Below, piece by piece: positions 40,069-43,000 of a DNA stretch of 64,000 bases. The position numbers were made by a program, and so were the translations under genes. Source of the stretch: Aquila chrysaetos chrysaetos (lineage: Eukaryota; Chordata; Aves; Accipitriformes; Accipitridae); the NCBI RefSeq assembly GCF_900496995.4, contig NC_044018.1:29965825-30029824 (forward strand), given 5' to 3'. A model generated the notes under the pieces. That model was not told where the DNA came from. It worked only from the letters and a program-made list of their open reading frames with translations, and ran no database searches. Each line of letters opens with the position of its first letter. Within the stretch, counting starts at the first letter, position 1.

Positions 40069-43000
40069 CTAGCTGCTTCCCATGCCCCCGGTCTCCGAGG
40101 AGAGCCTGCAACGAAGAAAAGGGTGTCAGAGGGGGCCCCGGTTTGGGGGGGAGGAGGAGGAGGAGGAGGAGGGATGGAGTGCAAGGGAGGAAGGGCTTCC
40201 CCGTGGGTAGTGCCCTGGAGGGGGGGGCCAGTCCCCCAAGGAAGGAAGGGAGGAAGTTTTTGGGGTGCAGGGGGTTGCTTTATGCACAAGCGGCAGGGAA
40301 GATGCAGCGAGGAGGGGGGGGTGCAGCCTGCTGCCCCCCCACCCCCAATACGGAGCCAGAGGGCTCCCCCGGGGCCCAGCACGCTGCTGGGGAGGGACGG
40401 ATCGAGACCGAGTGTGCCAGCAGGCTCTGCTCCAAGCGGGGGGGGGGGGGGGCAAAGCTTTTGGGGTGGGGACACCCAGGGGAAGGGGGACCCCAAGGTG
40501 CCCTGGGCACCCCGGGGTGCGGGCAGGCAGGAATCAGGCAGCAATTCCTGCAGGGAAGGCGGAGAGCAAGGGGGGGGGGGGCTGTACCCCCACCAGGGAC
40601 CCCTTGGGGAGCACAAGGGGGGGGGGGGGGCAACACACACGATGCAAGGGGGTCCCCGAGCAAGCAGGGATGACACCAGCACCCCCAACCCACACCGAGC
40701 ACCCCCAGGAGCTGCCACCTCTGCGGCTCAAAGCTTCTCCCTCCCTGCAATTTAAGGGGGGGGGGGGGCACCCCAACCGGGGTGGCAGTGAGCCCCCCCC
40801 CAGCAAGAGGGCACCCCACAAGGCCCCTTCCCCGGGGCTCAGCCCCCCCCATCAGCACAGATCTAGCAGAGCAGATTCTCACCGTGGCAACTTTATTACA
40901 GGTACAGACATTAAAGAGAGACAGGCGAGGCCGCGAGCCCCGTGGGCAATGTCACCAGGAATGCAATTAAATCCCAACTCGTTTATTCGGTAACGAACCC
41001 CTCCCTCCACCCCCCACCCCCTCCCCAAAACCGCGATTGCAACCAAGCTACTAAAAAATGGAAAAAAAAAAGGAGGAAAAAAAAAAAAAGCAACGGCTAC
41101 AAGCTAGCAGGATCGAGAAGGAATTGAACAGATCACTAGACTCCAGGCCGGGCTGGGACACAGGGAAAATTGTCTCTCGGCCGGCAAGAAAACTCCGTTC
41201 TAAGAAACATCACAAGCTCACTTTGGAGTAAAAAGGAGGAGAAAAAAAAAAAAAAAAAACAACCCCAAACAATGAAAAAAAGAAAAAGAATTGCTCTTCC
41301 AAGTCTCCTCTACGGGGTCTCCATGCTGCCACCGATCTGCTGGTCCTCTAAGGCCACAAGCAGACTCAGTAAGGAGAAAATCTCTGCTTTTCCGCTTTCA
41401 GTTTGTTAGTGACACATGGCACAGCTGGAGCGGAGGTACCCTTAGCAGCAGACACAACATTTAGAGCCAGGAGAGGGACAGGTTTCATGCCAAGCAGACT
41501 GGAGACACAAGGGGCGGTCGGAAGAGGGTTGGGGAGGCTGGCGGGTGCTTCGGAGGCCCCCGCTGTGGCGAGCGAGGGGGTGGTGGTGGAGGAGGAAGAA
41601 GAAGAAGGGGTGGAGGGTTGAGAGAGGTTGATGCTGAGGTGGTCAGGGATCGTGACGGAGGCTGCCTGGGAGGAGGGTTTAGCGCTTTCTAAACTGTAAC
41701 AGAGGAGAAAAGGAACAAAAAAAAAAATACGGGTGGGTGGAAGGGAACACCACAAAAAAAAAAAAGCACAGGACAAACAGCGTAGAATCGCATGAGCCGA
41801 GCTCGGGGAGGGAGGGAGGGAAGGAAGGAGGGAGCGGCACTGTGAGGCCGCAGCCGTGCCCAGCGAGGTCTGGCCTCACCTACGAGCCGCACCGGGACCC
41901 CCCCCGCACACCCCGGAGCCCGGGGCTGAGCCATCAGCTCAGCAGCAAGGCTGTCCCAGCACCCTTGGAGCCGGGCACCTCAACACAACCAGTGTGGAGC
42001 AAGTGGAATAAGCCAAATAAAAAAAAAAAAAAAAAAAAAAACAAAAGAGAGAAATCACAGGCAGCTTCTCCTCTGCTCCCGCTCGGGACCAGGCTGGAGC
42101 TGCCGTGCCATTCCGGCATCAACCCACGCAACACGGAGCGGTGACAAGTCCCTGCACAGGCTTGGGGCTCTCCCCAGCTCTCCTCCTCCATCCAGAGCCC
42201 CAGGGGCTGAGGACGGGGGAGGACATCGCTCCCAGCCCGGCTCATCGCAGCGAACACGGGACGCCACGGCAAGATGGGTCTGAGCGCACAGAGTCCCGAG
42301 TCGGGCCCTAAATCCCCGCTGCAGCAGAGAGCGCCGCAGCGTGCCGCATGGCGGGCAGGCAGCCAGGCCCCGTGCCGGGCTGCGGGGAAGCCAGCCGTCC
42401 CCGTCAGGGCTCGCCGGCCGCTCTGAGGTATCGGAGAGGAGCCAAGTCAGCACCAACTCCTCTCCCTGGGATCACGGCATCCCACTGGGAGATGCTCAGG
42501 ATCTCCACAAGCAGGCCCAGGCAAGTCCCTCCTCTATCACCCCACGAAAAAGCCCTCACCACGCAAGCGCCGGATCGAAACAGCACAGCCCTAACCGCCG
42601 AGAGCTTGACAGGGCCAGGCACGGCTTTTAAGCAGCCACGGGCTCCCCTCGGCACCGTGGCTGGACCCCTTTCCAGCCGGGTCCGTTACCCTACAGCTTC
42701 CCACAGACCGGGAGGCGATCGCACCAGGAAAATGGGACAGCAGGCACAAGGAGAGGAAAGGAAAGGGAGGGGAAAAAAAAAAAAAAAAACCCCAAAAACA
42801 AAAACCCCAAAAAAACCACGGGAGAGAAAACCCCTTCCCCTCATGCGTCGGGGCACAAGGAGGGTCCCACGAGCGGTACCCCACGGCACAGGCGTGCAGT
42901 GCCAGCCCCCCACCCGACCCGCGGAGCCTCGTCGCCTGGAGACTTACCTGACATTAATTAGATACTGGGCCAAGCTAATGCTCGCTGCAGATCCAGTTAT

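Follow-up and report, generated by a model that had tools for sequence, protein, structure and literature searches.

A PCBP4-type C-terminus predicted for PCBP2: a probably old alternative last exon with signs of constraint as RNA

PCBPs bind C-rich RNA, and passages of two papers (PMC4797308; PMC9701828) describe them as enhancing exons with preceding C-rich tracts. The second of these is a review, in one passage of which PCBPs and their isoforms are said to differ mainly between the KH domains, and passages of PMC5481333 report that human PCBP2 exon 11 is skipped in hypoxia, which leaves a KH2-KH3 linker 13 residues shorter. The element uc.338/TUC338 is, in the wording of a passage of PMC9829027, an intronic/exonic portion of PCBP2; its position relative to the exon described below was not found in the literature searched. 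In PMC4713055, a figure places a mouse APA event of Pcbp2 ahead of the last exon; we have not counted it as support because the passages around that figure leave its intron unstated and the study stresses promoter-near sites. The PCBP2 passages of PMC13420535, PMC9744839, PMC12487847, and PMC5829739 contained nothing bearing on the isoform treated here, in which the 11-residue C-terminus of the canonical protein (tail B) would be replaced by a much longer one (tail A). Within the passages of the open-licence PMC literature returned by the search, we found no description of this isoform and no occurrence of six peptide strings from the tails; it may well be annotated in subscription papers or in sequence databases, where vertebrate PCBP2 models with a tail-A-like end may be listed. 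PCBP2 is a much studied RNA-binding protein, and an old choice of two C-termini, one of them of PCBP4 type, would give its function a further variable.

The window, that is, the whole stretch of 64 kb that was analyzed, lies on contig C15 of a genome of 1.23 Gb in 144 contigs, which was also the genome searched. PCBP2 occupies its minus strand: the KH3 peptide has PCBP2 as its best PDB match (2p2r, 6.3e-31) and matches KH_1 in Pfam (1.2e-16), and the human PCBP2 sequence aligns with the window exon by exon from 53351 to 40072. The KH3 exon ends GTC AG/GTAAGT (the slash marks the exon boundary here and below), and its donor, with a score of 8.72, ranks second among the 3,466 minus-strand GT sites of the window; this and all other splice scores and ranks come from approximate position-weight matrices for acceptors and donors. 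The canonical acceptor at 40105 is likewise the second of 3,326 AG sites, and splicing to it completes a split codon (AG+G, Arg), giving a total of 12 residues before the stop. Elsewhere on the minus strand, a small exon of 13 residues (44679-44720) is apparently the counterpart of human PCBP2 exon 11. On the plus strand, at 38751-38843, we read by eye the end of an exon (30 residues) and its stop, presumably the C-terminus of MAP3K12, which is convergent with PCBP2.

Within the last intron, a sequence-only reading had placed an alternative, in-frame terminal exon behind a strong minus-strand acceptor, with 108 open codons in phase with KH3 and two AATAAA signals downstream, and each of these elements was recovered (Table 1). 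The acceptor, ...TTTGTTCCTTTTCTCCTCTGTTACAG/TTTAGAAAGC with the exon starting at 41693, ranks fifth of the 3,326 AG sites by a simple position-weight score. Joined to the KH3 donor (42948), it completes a split codon (AG+T, Ser) and continues in frame as LESAKPSS...KQRFSPY up to a TGA at 41368-41366, adding 109 residues when the split codon is counted with the 108. The two AATAAA signals, read along the minus strand, lie at 40987-40982 and 40897-40892. No strong donor separates them from the stop: the best scores 3.59, at 41221, versus 8.72 for KH3, and one scoring 4.54, at 40882, sits beyond the last signal. The stop thus lies in a terminal exon, for which NMD is not expected. An acceptor of its own, phase with the upstream donor, an in-frame stop, and a poly(A) signal ahead of the next exon are all features of an alternative last exon.

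Table 1. Features of the 3' part of PCBP2, in coordinates of the window.
Feature	Position	Strand	Evidence
KH3 exon of PCBP2	42948..43117	-	donor AG/GTAAGT, GT at 42947-42946; Pfam and PDB matches
Polypyrimidine tract and AG acceptor of tail A exon	41694..41720	-	score rank 5/3,326; blastn match to C4 gene starts inside tract
Tail A, coding part of the predicted alternative last exon (split Ser codon, 108 codons, TGA)	41366..41693	-	homologous exons on C4 and C20
Densest C-rich stretch in the RNA of tail A, codons 26-40; candidate site for poly(C) binding	41573..41617	-	sequence; putative role
Conserved 16-residue tail motif	41459..41506	-	alignment of tails
Conserved 10-residue C-terminal motif	41369..41398	-	alignment of tails
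AATAAA, tail A exon poly(A) signal 1	40982..40987	-	
AATAAA, tail A exon poly(A) signal 2	40892..40897	-	
Tail B, coding end of canonical last exon (split-codon R, 11 residues, stop)	40069..40105	-	counterparts on C4 and C6
AATAAA of canonical last exon	39643..39648	-	

The same reading had also argued that so long a frame is unusual in the window and implies selection on the protein, and here the argument failed. In positions 38500-48000 (9.5 kb, six frames), stop-to-stop frames that reach 90 aa or more and overlap the interval number 58, and the given frame stays open in 5.5% of 4,000 dinucleotide shuffles of the tail A coding part, so the length of the frame by itself is a weak argument for selection, and homology decides instead. 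These figures would suit a chance open frame behind a chance acceptor, a possibility that we regard as practically negligible and have ruled out because two further PCBP genes, on contigs C4 and C20, have homologous exons at the same place and in the same phase.

The 109 residues of tail A, searched against all six frames of the genome, gave two matches at E <= 0.001, namely the tail A exon itself, in part, and a region of C4 (E 3.6e-13, 52% identity over residues 1-109, without a stop). On C4, a PCBP KH3 exon ending AG/GTAAGT lies 5.8 kb upstream of the tail A exon, which starts CAG/CTTAGAG and repeats the phase and the first residues (SLE) of PCBP2, the two tails being 47-52% identical. Tail B (RLSSEVTGLGAL, then a stop) follows downstream, and a single AATAAA lies between the two tails, 1,086 nt past the end of the coding part of A. 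With the PCBP2 and C4 tails as queries, a local search located a further copy on C20, about 0.35 kb past the KH3 exon of a PCBP4-like gene, in the same phase, with Cys as its split codon and 39% identity to the PCBP2 tail. When the C4 tail served as query against the whole genome, the matches listed were on C4 and C20; neither whole-genome search was exhaustive, the PCBP2-tail query having missed C20 and the C4-tail query the window's own exon.

An end-to-end alignment of the three tails has 27 invariant columns out of 120, every pair far outscores its 2,000 shuffles (z 21.8, 11.5, and 20.1, the value of 11.5 belonging to PCBP2/C20), and in each of the three genes the proposed frame is the only one of six free of stops. 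Since paralogous genes of the same genome also carry it, tail A appears both old and real, and the proposal of an alternative terminal exon giving PCBP2 another C-terminus gains its support from exons directly after KH3, in the same phase, in two paralogs. We consider it very probable that PCBP2 has here a genuine alternative last exon of long standing. Splicing of 42948 to 41693, with cleavage past the AATAAA at 40987 or 40897, would yield the long PCBP4-type tail (SLE.AK...KQRFSPY), and splicing of 42948 to 40105 the short 11-residue tail; on the evidence of the DNA, it is likewise highly likely, by a slightly smaller measure, that the gene produces both mRNAs and that tail A becomes part of a protein. 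That the exon is instead a relic, an ancestral tail kept in PCBP2 DNA but no longer spliced in this species, seems very improbable given the strong acceptor, the in-phase KH3 donor, the intact frame, the poly(A) signals, and the synonymous conservation described below.

The remaining PCBP genes bear on the history of this arrangement. The gene on C6, whose KH3 equals that of human PCBP3, carries tail B (RLTSEVTGMGAL, then a stop) 1.8 kb past KH3; no tail A was seen in those 1.8 kb, where the best tblastn match (E 0.002) has an internal stop, and C6 was absent from the matches listed in the non-exhaustive whole-genome tail searches. In the gene on C20, which we name PCBP4 after the human protein, tail A is the sole tail found in 10 kb, tail B having no convincing match there. 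Profiles run over both loci, 10 kb each from KH3 downstream, gave nothing above chance. The gene on C4 (about 71093900-71129710) has a KH3 nearest to PCBP3 (dN 0.05) and, with its KH1/KH2 exons and both tails, represents a fourth intron-bearing PCBP gene besides the PCBP2-, PCBP3-, and PCBP4-like ones; such a gene is not known from mammals. The order KH3 - tail A - tail B is thus common to PCBP2 and the C4 gene, and hence older than their split, while the C6 and C20 genes have one tail each. In the simplest history, the ancestral gene would have carried both tails and two of its descendants would each have lost one, or tail B would have arisen after PCBP4 had branched off. Given that the PCBP genes lie on different contigs and that fourfold sites in their bodies are saturated, the splits are old, and they are likely linked to the early vertebrate duplications.

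As a protein, tail A matched no Pfam family and no PDB entry. An AlphaFold model from three rows only had a mean pLDDT of 55.4 and a pTM of 0.12, without helices or strands; tail A is probably a long, disordered segment, which the low model confidence fits but as weak evidence. Two conserved motifs, one of 14 residues in the middle of the tail and the terminal KQRFSPY, may serve as docking sites. A search for the tail pattern in prokaryote and viral collections returned 43 and 13 matches, respectively, of which none was confirmed.

The tail A exon is more conserved in nucleotides than its protein would lead one to expect. Between PCBP2 and C4, fourfold sites at identical residues agree at 24 of 38 positions in the tail versus 24 of 89 in the compared body exons (Fisher p 0.00025), a comparison of paralogs within one genome, in which 6 of the 12 queried body exons had matches in the C4 loci used, and one that, like the C-rich test below, was devised once the alignment had been seen. 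An earlier comparison against KH3 alone set the same tail count against 5/17 (p 0.039). Base composition would give 34% agreement in the tail, where 63% was observed (p 0.0002), and 27% in the body, where 27% was observed (p 0.58). Bodies of the other five PCBP gene pairs agree at 30-37% of fourfold sites, and against the PCBP4 tail the counts are 11/26 for the PCBP2 tail and 8/25 for that of C4, so the excess concerns the pair that keeps both tails. Consistent with this, blastn between the 3' regions of PCBP2 and C4 scored the tail exon (119 bits, 276 nt, 71%, from inside the polypyrimidine tract) above the KH3 exon (109 bits, 180 nt, 73%), despite the tail protein being far less conserved than KH3. 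By the NG86 method, tail dN/dS was 0.43/0.79 for PCBP2/C4, 0.59/1.49 for PCBP2/PCBP4, and 0.43/1.51 for C4/PCBP4, the low dS of 0.79 being probably due to RNA constraint. Taken at face value, these letters point to an exon that is quite likely constrained also as RNA, beyond what the protein needs.

The excess of 24/38 over 24/89 fourfold sites, from paralogs of one genome, is the kind of nucleotide conservation beyond coding need that marks a poison exon. As a candidate, a poison exon with NMD autoregulation was rejected: it calls for a premature stop with a downstream junction, and here poly(A) signals follow the stop with no strong donor before them.

On the RNA strand, the coding part of tail A is 41% C. 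With 5,000 simulations each of the same peptides under body-exon codon usage, 5-mers containing at least four C numbered 37 in the PCBP2 tail versus 19.9 simulated (p 0.0036) and 35 versus 15.3 in C4 (p 0.0004); in PCBP4 the excess was not significant (31 versus 22.0, p 0.064). Of 987 windows along 25 kb of the C4 gene, 16 match the tail in C-richness, and all of them overlap the exon or sit in the roughly 400 nt before it. In PCBP2, 69 of 538 windows do so, other introns among them, so the exon is not exceptional within that gene. The intron between tails A and B (40276-40901, minus strand) likewise has many C-rich 5-mers in the sense of the mRNA, leaving either tail open to any poly(C) control. 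No stable RNA fold was found, the tail A coding part folding less well than its shuffles (z +1.74), and no Rfam family reached its gathering score in 39500-43200.

As PCBPs bind C-rich RNA and enhance exons that lie behind C-rich tracts, feedback on the choice between A and B is plausible, no more, and the RNA constraint hints that PCBP2 may help control its own splicing. Tentatively, this choice could be set by PCBP proteins bound to the C-rich tail A exon or to the tract ahead of it. More speculative by a shade is a wider version, in which KH3 - A - B would be an autoregulatory switch predating the PCBP duplications, with PCBPs binding tail A in their own pre-mRNAs and thereby deciding whether the long, PCBP4-like tail or the short one is used, which would explain why synonymous letters survive here where those of the KH domains are saturated. 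One may go further and suppose that the exon is mainly a regulatory switch, its use lowering the canonical short-tail mRNA, perhaps by PCBP feedback through the C-rich exon, rather than supplying a needed protein; synonymous conservation above expectation, C-rich motifs in excess of protein needs, the confinement of equally C-rich C4 windows to the exon or just ahead of it, and the passages on PCBP enhancement of exons behind C-rich tracts (PMC4797308) would all suit this, yet we hold it to be unlikely, given that three genes preserve the frame and the end motifs, that the PCBP4-like gene has tail A as its sole tail found, and that NMD decay is not expected from a stop in a terminal exon. With a synonymous constraint in a C-rich exon of a gene for a poly(C)-binding protein, autoregulation can be tested directly.

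PCBP2 tail A is, then, an ordinary kind of feature, most likely an alternative last exon, with an unusual and testable constraint at the RNA level. Like other alternative last exons with intronic polyadenylation, it has its own acceptor, stop, and poly(A) signals inside the last intron; unlike a short truncation, the predicted exon codes for a long, conserved tail. As with ultraconserved and poison exons of splicing-factor genes, and with uc.338/TUC338 in PCBP2, the gene codes for an RNA-binding protein and its alternative exon shows constraint in the nucleotides, but no further junction follows the stop of tail A. The tail A of the PCBP3-like paralog on C4 shares with it the order KH3 - A - B, the phase, a poly(A) signal between A and B, and the nucleotide conservation, and differs in about half of its residues and in length (116 versus 109 residues, including the split codon). 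Closest in type is the tail of the PCBP4-like gene, to which PCBP2 tail A is similar over its whole length: both sit directly after KH3 in the same phase, with an LE.AK start, the conserved middle motif, and, in PCBP4, a QKFSPY end. The PCBP4 tail is the only one found in its 10 kb and its RNA lacks a significant C-rich excess, whereas tail A in PCBP2 would compete with tail B.
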